Shown here: positions 2,714 to 14,737 of the stretch, piece after piece
Numbering within the stretch: the stretch's first letter is position 1
Layout: each line of letters opens with the position of its first letter
NCBI GenBank assembly: GCA_017880905.1
Contig: JADGRO010000023.1
Span: 1 to 64,000 of the forward strand
DNA: 64,000 bases
Direction of reading: 5' to 3'
From: Methylotenera sp.
GTDB taxonomy: Bacteria > Pseudomonadota > Gammaproteobacteria > Burkholderiales > Methylophilaceae
The notes under the pieces: model-generated
The model's input: the letters and a program-made list of their open reading frames with translations, nothing else
Database searches by the model: none
Told to the model about the DNA's origin: nothing
Program-made: the position numbers and the translations under genes

Positions 2714-4009
2714 TTAGTACGTCACCCTTTCTGGCACTGGCAAAGTCTTATCTTTTGAAGTGTACCAAGGCATCAGGATGAAAAATGCAAAGTAAATAAA
2801 TGTGAATATTCGAGCAACCCAAGTGGCGCAATCCCTAGTATCTACAATATCTTTAGACCATTCGCCCAATTGTCCCCATACAGTAGTAGGCACTGTGCCC
2901 AAATAACCAAGCACAAAAAAACTCACCACAAAAGCTGCCAACCAGCGTTTATATAGCGAACCACGATAGCGAATCGATTTCACCGGGCTTCTATCTAACC
3001 AAGGCAATAATGCAAACGCCATTACCGATAAACCCATCGCAGCGACGCCAGGAAACTGCGAGTTCATAACTGGCGGCACCGCGCGTAATATAGAATAATA
3101 CGGTGTGAAGTACCACACAGGTGCGATATGCGCTGGCGTTTTGAGAGAATCAGCTGGGATGAAATTATTCGCCTCTAAAAAGTAGCCACCCATCTCTGGC
3201 GCAAAGCAAATAATTGCCGCGAACACAATTAAAAACACCACTACACCGACCAAATCTTTCACCGTGTAATAGGGGTGAAACGGGATGCCGTCTAACGGAA
3301 TGCCGGTTTTTTTGTCTTTCTTTTCCTTGATTTCTACACCGTCTGGGTTGTTAGAGCCCACTTCGTGCAAAGCGATTAAATGCGCTGCTACCAAGCCCAA
3401 CAACACCATCGGCAACGCAATGACATGAAATGCGAAAAAACGATTCAATGTTGCATCCGATATCAAATAATCGCCGCGTAGCCATTCTGATATATCAGGC
3501 CCAATAAAAGGAATAGCGCTAAACAGGTTCACGATTACTTGCGCCCCCCAGTAAGACATTTGACCCCAAGGCAATAGGTATCCAAAAAACGCTTCACCCA
3601 TTAAACACAAGAAAATCGCTACTCCAAACAACCAAATGAGTTCGCGTGGATTGCGGTATGACCCGTAAATAACGCCTCGGAACATATGTAAATACACCAC
3701 AATAAAGAACATGGATGCGCCAGTAGAATGCATATAGCGAATGATATTGCCGCCAAACACATCGCGCATGATATATTCAACTGAAGCAAATGCTTGTGCA
3801 GCATCTGGTTTGTAGTGCATTGTCAAGAAAATACCGGTGACGATTTGCAACACCAGTACTAGCATGGCGAGCGAACCAAAAAAGTACCAAAAATTGAAAT
3901 TTTTGGGTGCGTAATATTCGGTTAAGTGATTTTTAATGTTGCTGGTGAGCGGAAAGCGCGCGTCTATCCAGCCCATAATGCCTTTTGTTTCTACAATTTT
4001 ATTAGCCAT
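2714..4009 (-). CDS. petB: Cytochrome b of the bc1 complex
   Basis: The membrane subunit that oxidises ubiquinol and carries haems bL and bH. The 431 residues form a full-length protein with eight or more membrane segments. Candidate haem ligands are H94 and H108 in one helix and H195 and H210 in another. The Qo-site motif reads PVWY instead of PEWY, a variant I recall from beta- and gammaproteobacteria. Its start overlaps the 3' end of petA by 8 bases, which implies translational coupling. Confidence 0.97.
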   Translation of the reverse strand: MANKIVETKGIMGWIDARFPLTSNIKNHLTEYYAPKNFNFWYFFGSLAMLVLVLQIVTGIFLTMHYKPDAAQAFASVEYIMRDVFGGNIIRYMHSTGASMFFIVVYLHMFRGVIYGSYRNPRELIWLFGVAIFLCLMGEAFFGYLLPWGQMSYWGAQVIVNLFSAIPFIGPDISEWLRGDYLISDATLNRFFAFHVIALPMVLLGLVAAHLIALHEVGSNNPDGVEIKEKKDKKTGIPLDGIPFHPYYTVKDLVGVVVFLIVFAAIICFAPEMGGYFLEANNFIPADSLKTPAHIAPVWYFTPYYSILRAVPPVMNSQFPGVAAMGLSVMAFALLPWLDRSPVKSIRYRGSLYKRWLAAFVVSFFVLGYLGTVPTTVWGQLGEWSKDIVDTRDCATWVARIFTFIYFAFFILMPWYTSKDKTLPVPERVTY

Positions 4010-4664
4010 GATTTAAGCCCCCCGCCTTTGCATCTTCACCGATCAACAAAGTGGTATCATTTAAGTATTGATGTGGCGGCACAACTAAATTAGTAGGTGC
4101 AGGCGAGCCTTTAAACACACGGCCTGCAAGGTCGAACTTGGAACCGTGGCAGGGGCAGAAAAACCCGCCTGACCAGCTATCCCCCATATCGCCGCCTGCC
4201 TGCATTTTGGTGGTGGGCGAGCAACCCAAATGTGTGCAAATGCCCACAACTACAGAAATATTTTCTTTAATTGAGCGGTGCAAATTCTTACAATACGTCG
4301 GCTGTTGAGAGCTTACATCACTATTGGGGTCAGAGAGTTGATCATTATGCTTGCTCAATTCTGATGTCTGCTCGGGTGTACGGCTTATAATCCACACTGG
4401 CTTACCGCGCCATTCTGCAGTCATGATAGTACCTTGTTGAACTTTACTGATATCCACTTCAACCGGTGCACCCGCAGCTTTGGCACGCTCACTAGGCAGC
4501 ATACTGCCTACAAATGGCACTGCCACAGCAACCGCGCCAATGGCGCCTGTACAGGCGGTTGCAGTGATTAAAAAATTACGTTTTTCTAAATCGACTTTTG
4601 TGGGTGTTGTGAATGATAAAGCGCTACTTTTGTCAATGCTTCTTTTAATCTTGGTGTCTGCCAT
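4002..4664 (-). CDS. petA: Rieske iron-sulfur subunit of the bc1 complex
   Basis: It carries the [2Fe-2S] cluster that takes the first electron from ubiquinol. The 220 residues contain the two ligand boxes CTHLGC (C143, H145, C148) and CPCHGS (C170, C172, H173). The N-terminus has a Tat-like signal/anchor, but the twin-arginine position reads EKRNFLI, with KR instead of RR. Rieske proteins are usual Tat substrates and a complete tatABC lies 3-4 kb away. It is the first gene of petABC and has a candidate promoter upstream. Confidence 0.96.
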   Translation of the reverse strand: MADTKIKRSIDKSSALSFTTPTKVDLEKRNFLITATACTGAIGAVAVAVPFVGSMLPSERAKAAGAPVEVDISKVQQGTIMTAEWRGKPVWIISRTPEQTSELSKHNDQLSDPNSDVSSQQPTYCKNLHRSIKENISVVVGICTHLGCSPTTKMQAGGDMGDSWSGGFFCPCHGSKFDLAGRVFKGSPAPTNLVVPPHQYLNDTTLLIGEDAKAGGLNHG

Positions 4665-11931: not shown

Positions 11932-12519
11932 TTATAAACTGCCTTTAGTGGACGGCGTAATGCCTGACATGCGTTCGTCATAGGTAATTGCCATGCGCAA
12001 TGCGCGGCCAAAGGCTTTGAATATGGTTTCAGACTGGTGATGTGAGTTATTGCCTTTGAGATTATCAATATGCAGCGTCACATTGGCGTGATTCACAAAG
12101 CCTTGGAAAAATTCGTGTATCAAATCAACATCAAATTCGCCAATTGCGGCCCGCGTAAATTCGCAATTAAACTCTAAACCTGGTCGGCCAGATAAATCGA
12201 GCACCACGCGGCTTAGCGCCTCATCTAGCGGCACATAGGCGTGACCATAGCGATTAATGCCTTTTTTATCTCCAATTGCCTTTGCAAACGCTTGGCCAAG
12301 CGTAATGCCTATATCTTCTACCGTGTGGTGTGCATCAATATGCAGATCGCCCTTAGCCTGCACGCTAATATCCATCATACCATGACGCGCTACCTGATCC
12401 AACATGTGATCTAAAAAACCTAAACCGGTGCTAAATTGAGATTGACCCGAGCCATCAATATTAATGGCAACAGTAATTTGAGTTTCAAGTGTGTTACGGG
12501 TGACTTCTGCTTTGCGCAT
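11932..12519 (-). CDS. hisB: Imidazoleglycerol-phosphate dehydratase
   Basis: Dehydrates imidazole glycerol phosphate using bound manganese. The 195-residue protein is monofunctional, with the HHTVEDIG and [15 protein letters not shown] metal motifs and no histidinol-phosphatase domain; that activity must come from another gene. It is the first gene after the hps terminator, so it may need its own promoter. The 98-base spacer 12520-12617 holds only a weak GTGC-TTTC-GCAC hairpin (12576-12587). Confidence 0.97.
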
Positions 12520-12617: not shown

Positions 12618-12649
12618 TAAAAAAGCCGACCTAATGGCCGGCTTTTTTA
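12618..12649 (-). terminator. Rho-independent terminator after hps
   Basis: GCCGaCC and GGcCGGC form a stem around TAAT, with A-runs before and a T-run after, directly downstream of the hps stop codon on the minus strand. It separates hps from hisB and should also stop read-through from hisGDC. Confidence 0.85.
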
Positions 12650-12662
12650 ATTCAAAACAAAA

Positions 12663-13526
12663 TTATTTTGCTTCTTCAGCTGGCGCTGCTTCTGCAGGAG
12701 CTGTTTCTGTGGGTGCCGCTTCAGCTGGAGCTGCTGCATCTGCTGCTGGAGCCGCTTGTTCTACCGCAGCCGGCGCTGCTGCTGGCGTTTCTTCAGCAGG
12801 TTTACCACCTTTAAGCAAATACAAACCAAGCAATACTGCCCCTGCAATCAATGCCCATGGTAATAATTTACCCATGCCACCCGCACTTGCGTTGCCTGCA
12901 TGAGCCAAGCCTGTAATTTCAGCCGCTGAAGCTGCTGGATCTGCTGCGCCGTAAATTGCGGCGCCTGCAACCACAATATCAGCACCTGCATCCACCACTT
13001 GGCGTACTGTTGCTGCTTTTACGCCACCTGCTACGGAAACTTTAGCCCCCGTGTTTAAACCGGTTATCATAGCCAAATCAGCAAAAGGAGTTTGGCCAGC
13101 AGCTTGTTGGTCTAAGCCTGTATGCACGCCAATGATGTGTGCACCTAATTTAGCCACCTCTAATGCGCGCGCTTTTTTATCGCCAACGTTGATCAAATCC
13201 ACTTGTGCTTGTTTGCCGTATTTGTTAGCCACATCCACTACACCTTTGATAGTGCCAATATCAGCGCAACCTAGCACTGTGCAAATATCTGCACCGGCTT
13301 TGTAGAATGGCTCGGCTTCGTAGAAACCAGCGTCCATTGTTTTCAAATCAACTAAGATTTTATTGTTTGGAAATTTTGAGCGAAGCGTTTTAAGTAACTC
13401 AATACCATTATGCTTAATGCATGGAGTACCGATTTCTAAGATATCTACGTGTGGCGCAACTTTGGTCGCTAATGCAACAGTCGCGTCAAAATCTAGTGAA
13501 TCTAATGCCATTTGGGTTTGTGCCAT
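12663..13526 (-). CDS. hps: 3-hexulose-6-phosphate synthase with a C-terminal membrane anchor and Ala/Pro/Glu-rich tail
   Basis: Condenses formaldehyde with ribulose 5-phosphate, the first step of the RuMP cycle. Residues 1-210 are a complete HPS (orotidine-decarboxylase-like barrel) with DILEIGTPCIKHNG, VDLKTMDAGFYEAEPFYKAGAD, GVHTGLDQQAAGQTPF and VSVAGGVK. A glycine-rich linker, a hydrophobic segment (about 221-238, KLLPWALIAGAVLLGLYLL) and a 47-residue tail of almost only Ala, Pro, Glu and Thr follow. HPS is normally about 210 residues and soluble. The start is the ATG after an ideal GGAGGAA, 11 codons inside the longest frame. It sits alone between hisC and hisB with its own promoter and terminator. 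The catalytic call is secure; membrane attachment is inferred. Confidence 0.93.
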   Translation of the reverse strand: MAQTQMALDSLDFDATVALATKVAPHVDILEIGTPCIKHNGIELLKTLRSKFPNNKILVDLKTMDAGFYEAEPFYKAGADICTVLGCADIGTIKGVVDVANKYGKQAQVDLINVGDKKARALEVAKLGAHIIGVHTGLDQQAAGQTPFADLAMITGLNTGAKVSVAGGVKAATVRQVVDAGADIVVAGAAIYGAADPAASAAEITGLAHAGNASAGGMGKLLPWALIAGAVLLGLYLLKGGKPAEETPAAAPAAVEQAAPAADAAAPAEAAPTETAPAEAAPAEEAK

Positions 13527-13534
13527 GATGCTTA

Positions 13535-13541
13535 TTCCTCC
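13535..13541 (-). promoter_or_regulatory. Strong ribosome binding site of hps
   Basis: GGAGGAA on the minus strand ends 8 bases before the ATG at 13526. It is the strongest Shine-Dalgarno sequence noticed in the window and fixes the start; the more upstream ATG at 13559 is rejected. A strong site suits an enzyme expected to be abundant in a RuMP methylotroph. Confidence 0.85.
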
Positions 13542-13634: not shown

Positions 13635-13664
13635 ATAATAACCGCAATTTGGTATTTCTTTCAA
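13635..13664 (-). promoter_or_regulatory. Sigma-70 promoter of hps
   Basis: Minus strand TTGAAA (13659-13664; 5 of 6 consensus bases) and TATTAT (13635-13640; 5 of 6) lie 18 bp apart in the hisC-hps spacer. Transcription would begin near 13628 and give a leader of about 100 bases, rich in A/T and containing inverted repeats. Confidence 0.6.
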
Positions 13665-13675
13665 CAATTTAGTGA

Positions 13676-14737
13676 TTATTTAAGAATTGCACTCAATGCA
13701 TTAATGAGCTGCTTTGATTGTCCATCAGTGCCGATGGTGATGCGCAAGTAATTAGAAATACGTGATGGTTTTTGAAAATGTCGCACCACAATACTTTTAT
13801 CACGGAGTTTTGCGGCCAAATTTTCACCAGCCAGTGTTTTGTGCCTTGCAAATATAAAATTGGCACCCGAAGGCAAAACTTCAAAATGAAGTGCCTGCAA
13901 CCCTTTAACTAATACGCCTCTCGAAGCGATGACTTTTTTTCTGGTTTCTTCAAAATATGCTTTATCTTGCATTGCTGCAATCGCACCAGCTTCGGCAAAA
14001 CGGTCTATCGGATAAGAATTAAAGCTATCCTTTACGCGAATTAGTGCTTCAATCAAATCTTTATGCCCAAGTGCATAACCCACACGCAAGCCCGCCAGTG
14101 AACGCGCTTTTGAAAGTGTTTGCGTCACCAGCAAGTTCGGGTATGTACTAATAAGATTAACCGCAGATTCTGTACCAAAATCCACGTACGCTTCGTCAAT
14201 TACTAGCACGGATTCCGTGTTGATTTTCAACAGACTTTCAATTTCCGTCAAAGCCAAAGGCACGCCTGTCGGCGCATTCGGGTTAGCGAAAATAATGCCC
14301 CCATTTGGTTTGTCGTAATCTTTCACATCAATTTCGAAATTTCCATTGAGCGGAATTTCCTCATACTCAATGTCATATAAACAGCAATAAACTGGATAAA
14401 AACTGTAAGTAATATCAGGGAAAAATAACGGTCGACTGTGTTTAAGCAACGCTTGAAATACATGCGCCAGCACTTCGTCTGAACCATTTCCGACAAACAC
14501 TTGGTTGGTCTGTAAACCATAATAATCTGCAATTGCAGCCTTAAGTTTATCTGAATTAGGGTCTGGGTAAAGCCGTAAACTATCTGCCGCCTCAGCCTGC
14601 AAGGCACGTATTACTTGGTGGCTAGGGCCATAAGGATTTTCATTGGTATTGAGTTTAACTAAATTATCCAGCTTGGGCTGCTCGCCAGGTACATAGGGAA
14701 TCAACTTATGTACTACGTCGCTCCAAAACTTACTCAT
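13676..14737 (-). CDS. hisC: Histidinol-phosphate aminotransferase
   Basis: PLP enzyme converting imidazole acetol phosphate to histidinol phosphate. The 353 residues show [26 protein letters not shown], the IDEAYVDF strand and the PLP lysine K210 in [16 protein letters not shown]. It follows hisD by 10 bases. Downstream comes the hps cassette instead of hisB. Confidence 0.96.

Follow-up and report, generated by a model that had tools for sequence, protein, structure and literature searches.

The window analyzed here is a 64,000-nucleotide stretch of a contig from Methylotenera sp. (family Methylophilaceae), and it carries, between hisB and hisC, a gene for 3-hexulose-6-phosphate synthase (HPS), hps2, whose product continues past the catalytic domain into a predicted C-terminal membrane anchor. 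The coding strand is the minus strand; the plus strand at 12663-13526, on which the original prediction had read the gene, is full of stop codons. The features of the locus are:

11932-12519, minus strand: hisB, the downstream neighbor (NF002106, 369 bits, cut-off 283)
12618-12649, minus strand: hairpin plus T-run 3' of the stop codon, terminator-like (by eye and folding; absent from the terminator scan list)
12663-13526, minus strand: hps2, 3-hexulose-6-phosphate synthase with a predicted C-terminal membrane anchor, 287 amino acids, ATG start (ORF list, profile matches)
12666-12809, minus strand: acidic Ala/Pro/Glu tail, residues 240-287, disordered in the model and probably on the periplasmic side
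12810-12869, minus strand: hydrophobic helix with a K-x-LPW start, residues 220-239 (hydropathy, model, alignment)
12870-12908, minus strand: Gly/Ala/Ser linker, residues 207-219
12909-13526, minus strand: HPS domain (HUMPS-family TIM barrel), residues 1-206, with the D-x-K-x-x-D motif and a later His kept (profiles, alignment, model)
13534-13541, minus strand: Shine-Dalgarno-like GGAGGAAT (by eye)
13635-13664, minus strand: promoter-like TTGAAA-N18-TATTAT with the downstream core TTGCGGTTATNATG
13676-14737, minus strand: hisC, the upstream neighbor (TIGR01141, 312 bits, cut-off 276.55)

The protein matches the curated HPS model TIGR03128 at 249.4 bits (cut-off 200; residues 5-205) and PF00215 over residues 5-204, and its AlphaFold2 model adopts the HUMPS TIM-barrel fold, with 3f4w and 3ajx, also the nearest solved structures by sequence, as the best Foldseek matches (probability 1.00; TM-scores by target of 0.86 and 0.87, respectively). 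Together with the open reading frame, the profile matches confirm the earlier description of an HPS domain that runs in frame into a Gly-rich linker, a hydrophobic segment and a tail of A, P, E and T. The solved HPS proteins share the whole catalytic domain, the motif residues and the fold with the window protein, but their chains (207 and 211 residues) end with the domain, whereas hps2 adds the linker, the helix and the tail. Pfam and NCBIfam profile searches found no second enzyme domain in the window protein. The known HPS fusions, HPS-PHI (NF041755), Fae-HPS (NF009833) and HPS-'ribonuclease regulator' (NF005442), are alike in joining extra sequence to an HPS domain, but the part added here appears to be a membrane device, not an enzyme; the latter two NCBIfam models also contradict the earlier statement that PHI (phosphohexulose isomerase) is the only known fusion partner. 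Residues D60, K62, D65 and H135, the equivalents (matched by motif rather than by superposition) of active-site residues mutated in 3-keto-L-gulonate-6-phosphate decarboxylase, are invariant in the alignments of 36 proteins with the anchor type of the window and 31 with the shorter type described below, which suggests that both anchored forms should be active enzymes.

The tail proper comprises 48 residues (rather than the 47 reported originally), 41 of which are A, P, E or T. Over 19-residue windows, the Kyte-Doolittle mean of the protein peaks at 1.89 (starts at residues 220 and 221) vs. 1.52 for the best start before residue 200, and 1.89 was reached by 114 of 10,000 shuffles of residues 206-287. 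The AlphaFold2 model places a helix at residues 222-238 (pLDDT about 70), followed by the tail at pLDDT <50; hydropathy and model agree on a single hydrophobic helix, some 20 residues long, as in a single-pass membrane protein. On the same strand, both alternative reading frames across the tail are interrupted by stops, and the architecture recurs in 49 further his-linked HPS genes, each from a different genome. The extension is therefore neither chance nor the product of an assembly error or frameshift, and the concern, raised with the original prediction, that the homologs might all lack it does not hold either. A search of the 79-residue tail against the proteins of its own genome returned, besides itself, just two matches, an OmpA-like protein (E 0.03), in which a hydrophobic N-terminal segment precedes a stretch of Ala/Pro/Glu, and a translation factor IF-2-like protein (E 0.26), both named by eye, and the idea that the tail derives from a different protein of its genome was rejected. 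Spread by plasmids was also rejected, with no match in PLSDB.

Some features around hps2 hint at its expression. The core TTGCGGTTATNATG is present in 19 of 21 g1/g10 upstream regions, and the hairpin past the stop codon has a z of -5.3 and was equaled in stability by 0 of 200 shuffles; these two, with the Shine-Dalgarno-like site, suggest that hps2 may be transcribed separately. Consensus promoter and terminator scans gave no excess over shuffles (for promoters, 1 found vs. 3.0 expected). A TGTGC-N4-GCACA dyad upstream of the gene was dropped as a candidate, being missing from the 20 other g1/g10 upstream regions.

The same genome encodes a second HPS, which the original prediction did not mention: a protein of 211 residues without extension, encoded between the transaldolase (tal) and PHI (phi) genes (names checked) and 90% identical to the window HPS over the domain. 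The two-gene arrangement as such is already published. Beck et al. 2014 (PMC4109929) report two HPS genes of ~90% identity in all of their new Methylophilaceae strains: one lies in the histidine cluster, and the other is linked to HPI and transaldolase. These are the same loci as described here, the difference being that the HPS section of that paper is silent on C-terminal anchors. Within the open-licence literature, a scope that most subscription journals fall outside of, we found no description of HPS anchors and no paper pairing 'hexulose' with 'amphipathic' and 'methylotroph'.

To place the two copies in the context of the family, 150 Methylophilaceae genomes, an even draw from a larger group, were searched for HPS, 143 of which had a match, and 160 HPS genes from 116 Methylophilaceae genomes, chosen among the matches listed, were fetched with their surroundings; part of these loci were picked mostly by a match running past residue 213, which favors tailed genes. 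All 101 his-linked genes (i.e., those whose fetched stretch includes hisB or hisC; 100 genomes) carry a predicted C-terminal membrane device, vs. none of the 54 phi/tal-linked genes (48 genomes). The 101 devices comprise 50 with a transmembrane (TM) helix plus tail, as in the window, and 51 with a short amphipathic segment, an alternative in related genera that the earlier account lacked; for 95 of the 101, the fetched stretch contains both hisB and hisC. The remaining five of the 160 genes, with neither type of neighbor, showed the short form (four) or a variant of it (one). A second sample, baited with hisB and thus free of the match-length bias, covered 60 genomes taken by handle number (every fifth, in two series) and yielded 57 hisB loci. 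HPS was found in the stretch at 38 of these, partly the same genes as the 101, and was anchored in all 38 (20 short, 18 TM).

The cases without an anchored his-linked copy are concentrated in particular genera. Fourteen of the 19 hisB loci without HPS belong to genera g14 and g16, which have small genomes and only an unanchored HPS copy; the other five (G008, G011, G018, G031 and G041) have a short-tailed copy elsewhere, on another stretch, and the G031 locus, with only 305 bases upstream of hisB, is uninformative about an HPS neighbor. For 12 of the 116 genomes, none of the HPS genes fetched carried an anchor of the strict pattern, namely eight in g14/g16 plus G028, G064, G129 (91% complete, from a genus with TM forms, and with an unanchored copy only) and G031, whose tail fails the strict pattern and was counted as having no anchor. 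In g9, g12 and g19, the fetched stretches show no his genes near the anchored HPS. A partial HPS gene of G024, below the score filter and outside the 160-gene count, ends in GGLFGWLKKLFG. One gene counted among the 101 (L061, G058:C185:23100-28800) is flanked by hisB and, on the opposite side, by tal, and its HPS domain is identical to that of a phi/tal copy of G076; either the contig is chimeric or the two HPS loci have recombined. Outside the family, a class scan (E <= 1e-40) gave a thin sample of 11 HPS genes from 5 genomes, none with an anchor and two fused to PHI (L267 and L274), and a phylum scan placed 4 of 398 genomes above the cut-off, two of which (G000 and G010) are both Methylophilaceae.

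Across the 50 proteins of the TM form, the 19-residue Kyte-Doolittle maximum ranges from 1.67 to 2.66 (median 2.16), the charge of the linker from 0 to +3 and that of the tail from -4 to -21; this charge pattern, together with the cytosolic substrates, favors an orientation with the HPS enzyme inside and the tail outside. Between 31 and 110 residues lie beyond the helix, and since tail-anchored proteins in the strict sense have about 30 or fewer, that earlier designation does not apply in this sense. The K-x-LP[WY] start of the helix is common to 49 of the 50, which suggests one origin for the TM-form tail; in a domain-only tree, the TM forms do not all group together (5 changes, at least 3 of them forced). 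The pN/pS ratio of the TM helix is 0.41 vs. 0.08 for its domain (pooled pairwise values, with synonymous sites near saturation and the TM gene of G144, which contains a run of X, left out), a looser constraint, as expected if hydrophobicity is mainly what is needed. The Ala/Pro/Glu tail drifts, with order and length poorly conserved. An Ala/Pro-rich stretch of similar make-up was also observed just after the signal-like start of an ammonium-transporter-like protein (L096/L314, G100:C123; named by eye), and such stretches may be periplasmic in Methylophilaceae.

The short form ends, after a Gly/Ser linker, with GG-[LVF]-F-G-W-[LIV]-K-[KGSRN]-L-F-S or near variants (i.e., the GG-LFGWLKKLFS type). 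In 18 of 19 distinct tails, muH is 0.66-0.75 with modest shuffle P values of 0.018-0.038, the exception being FCCWLKKLFS of G031 (muH 0.59, P 0.10). In this the short form resembles an RNase E-type membrane-targeting helix, being short and amphipathic, with basic residues and with its bulky aromatics on a single face. The exceptional gene (L313, G031:C68, 1609-2301, minus strand) ends in GGGFCCWLKKLFS, with two adjacent cysteines where its relatives show F-G. AlphaFold2 models the short form as a helix, with low confidence for the short and TM anchors alike. With 48 of the 55 short-form genes used, pN/pS is 0.14 for the helix vs. 0.10 for its domain, again as pooled pairwise values with nearly saturated synonymous sites; many changes are synonymous and few alter amino acids, indicating that the short helix is under purifying selection. 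A C-terminal amphipathic membrane helix is also known from MinD, an otherwise unrelated protein.

A DNA pattern for the short motif occurs in 43 of the 150 Methylophilaceae genomes, once in each (reversed control, 0), and all 43 places coincide with listed HPS 3' ends. When the pattern was scanned against genome_contigs (GTDB collection), the first 120 matches listed, which do not amount to a census, comprised 88 RNase E homologs, 5 HPS, 5 Balneola-type DEAD-box homologs, 4 ATP synthase a-subunit-like proteins (by eye), 11 family-less proteins of Opitutae and 7 others; the RNase E name was checked on two examples by Pfam, one of them also by NCBIfam, and the DEAD-box name on an example as well. 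The RNase E examples checked, from Burkholderiales, show a GFFGWLKxLFG-type segment near residues 570-610. At a nearby position in E. coli RNase E, residues 568-582 form the membrane-targeting sequence, a 15-residue amphipathic segment described as necessary and sufficient for membrane localization (PMC4372235), and we infer that RNase E of Burkholderiales uses its segment as the same device. The RNase E sequence and the short HPS tail are alike in being amphipathic and in the matching segment, but the former is internal and the latter C-terminal. Further, RNase Y of B. subtilis is reported to do the membrane job of RNase E by means of a TM motif (PMC12594526); that is, an amphipathic helix is swapped for a TM helix, the same alternation as between the two HPS anchors.

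A few other proteins from the scan are worth recording in their own right. Proteins of Balneola-type genomes (L172, L179, L199, L209 and L256) end in GVFGWVKKLF[ND], the same kind of tail as that of the short HPS form, L172 carrying DEAD and Helicase_C domains. Eleven proteins, mostly from Opitutae (L153, L155, L156, L159, L164, L173, L186, L187, L197, L200 and L235), contain a GFFGWLKGLFGG-type segment between stretches that are long, disordered and charged (Pfam matched nothing in L155), and a small protein of a Thiotrichales MAG (L142, 7390-7620, plus strand), also with no Pfam match, ends in SSSGGGLFGWLKKLLGG.

The anchor can be separated from the catalytic domain. In 32 of 36 within-genome pairings, the two HPS domains share 84.6-95.9% identity, the others being three pairings at 62-64% in g6 and that of G144. 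In the domain tree (155 rows; incomplete genes and the G144 TM gene were left out), which was built by a quick method and is weakly supported in places, his-linked and phi/tal-linked copies interleave, and the phi/tal group requires 16 changes, at least 6 of them forced by well-supported branches. Exchange between the two copies would explain this interleaving. G021 offers a close view of such separation: its tandem his-linked copies (L048, G021:C4:1755500-1762500, 2801-4601, minus strand) are identical over 629 nt, after which one continues into the TM helix and tail and the other into the short amphipathic form. The anchor nevertheless stays with the his-linked copy despite exchange, and this is the best sign in these sequences that location, rather than catalysis, sets the two HPS copies apart. 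A divergent HPS lineage, ~62-67% identical to the main one, was also observed in g6, g12 and g19 (L310-L312, L079, L080, L087, L042, L078, L081, L100 and L101); it includes short-tailed genes as well as an untailed gene beside phi/tal, so that the tailed/untailed pair is present a second time.

The sequences themselves show that the anchors are present, conserved and restricted to the his-type second paralog, which keeps its active-site motif residues. Membrane anchoring of HPS is strongly supported by sequence; the membrane location, topology and activity of the anchored enzyme are our inference. The explanation that we favor, and regard as probably correct, is that the anchored second paralog provides a dedicated membrane-bound, catalytically competent HPS pool that traps formaldehyde on entry, the trapping role itself being our hypothesis. 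Under this hypothesis, Methylophilaceae would retain the second paralog in addition to the housekeeping tal-hps-phi copy, the distinction between the two being a C-terminal anchor in the inner membrane. In the window form, a single TM helix would hold the enzyme in the cytosol, with the acidic disordered tail in the periplasm, and the same job would fall, in other genera, to an amphipathic helix resembling the membrane-targeting segment of RNase E. HPS is known to act as a dimer, and the amphipathic hold on the membrane would be strengthened if the anchored enzyme works in this way. On the inner face of the membrane, the pool would then condense the formaldehyde arriving from periplasmic methanol/methylamine oxidation with ribulose 5-phosphate, with the outcome that free cytosolic formaldehyde is kept low. 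The original prediction of a membrane-held HPS is thus partly supported and largely right, apart from errors of detail: its anchor recurs in 101/101 and 38/38 his-linked genes in the form of two unrelated devices, while a role near periplasmic methanol oxidation is, here as there, what the anchor would imply.

Two observations bear on the generality of this explanation. Genera g14 and g16, as well as G129, with only the unanchored copy, weigh against a general need for an anchored HPS, and since the small-genome genera have a working HPS and RuMP pathway with no anchor, anchoring is dispensable for methylotrophy as such. Particulate (i.e., membrane-associated) HPS activity is known from Methylococcus capsulatus, a likeness as far as HPS with membranes is concerned, but the 11 HPS genes from outside Methylophilaceae have no anchor.

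Alternatively, the anchor could be real but serve another purpose, such as docking HPS to another membrane complex or providing a regulatory membrane form, perhaps tied to histidine/ribose-phosphate metabolism. The hisB-hisC position conserved in most genera would fit this alternative, as would the hint of separate expression given by the promoter-like site and the terminator-like hairpin. However, the anchored copy lies away from his genes in g9, g12 and g19, which makes the his link non-essential, and the invariant catalytic motif residues argue for an active enzyme, so that we consider this alternative rather unlikely, although one to be taken seriously. Encapsulation peptides, too, can take the form of a short amphipathic helix at a protein terminus that follows a flexible linker, and the short form, a linker plus an amphipathic terminal helix, has that general shape; the tails might accordingly be assembly peptides, or peptides loading HPS as cargo into a protein shell (a microcompartment or encapsulin), instead of anchors. 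Yet, the BMC shell family PF00936 and the encapsulin family PF04454 were found in 0 of 24 Methylophilaceae genomes (positive controls were found), and the alternative device, a hydrophobic TM helix, would have no place in a shell lumen; HPS as shell cargo was thus rejected as very unlikely. Finally, that the tails are neutral, functionless leftovers on a redundant second gene seems hardly credible, for although the high identity and interleaving of the domains fit exchange and the Ala/Pro/Glu tail drifts in order and length, no his-linked gene lacks the anchor and no phi/tal-linked gene has gained one despite that exchange, and the pN/pS ratios given above, near that of the domain for the short helix and higher for the TM helix, speak for constraint.

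Returning to the membrane-bound, formaldehyde-fixing pool, a bolder version can be put forward tentatively, with the odds rather against it in its full form. That is, the entry step of the RuMP pathway would operate in two places, with a soluble HPS made together with PHI and a membrane HPS forming a trapping layer beneath the inner membrane; in TM lineages, the acidic periplasmic tail would contact the methanol/methylamine dehydrogenases, coupling formaldehyde production and fixation across the membrane, and during evolution the anchor would have been swapped and the place kept.

Sequence identity alone does not explain why methylotrophs keep two near-identical HPS genes or how they control formaldehyde, which is toxic and diffuses freely. 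The rule described here, with his-linked copies anchored and phi/tal-linked copies unanchored, gives the second HPS gene a testable purpose, and the swap of unrelated anchors on one enzyme, which in one genome involves catalytic domains that are identical, represents a natural experiment on location. If the anchored HPS does sit at the membrane, two natural anchors would be available for synthetic methylotrophy, and spatial organization, not kinetics alone, would matter for formaldehyde assimilation in Methylophilaceae.
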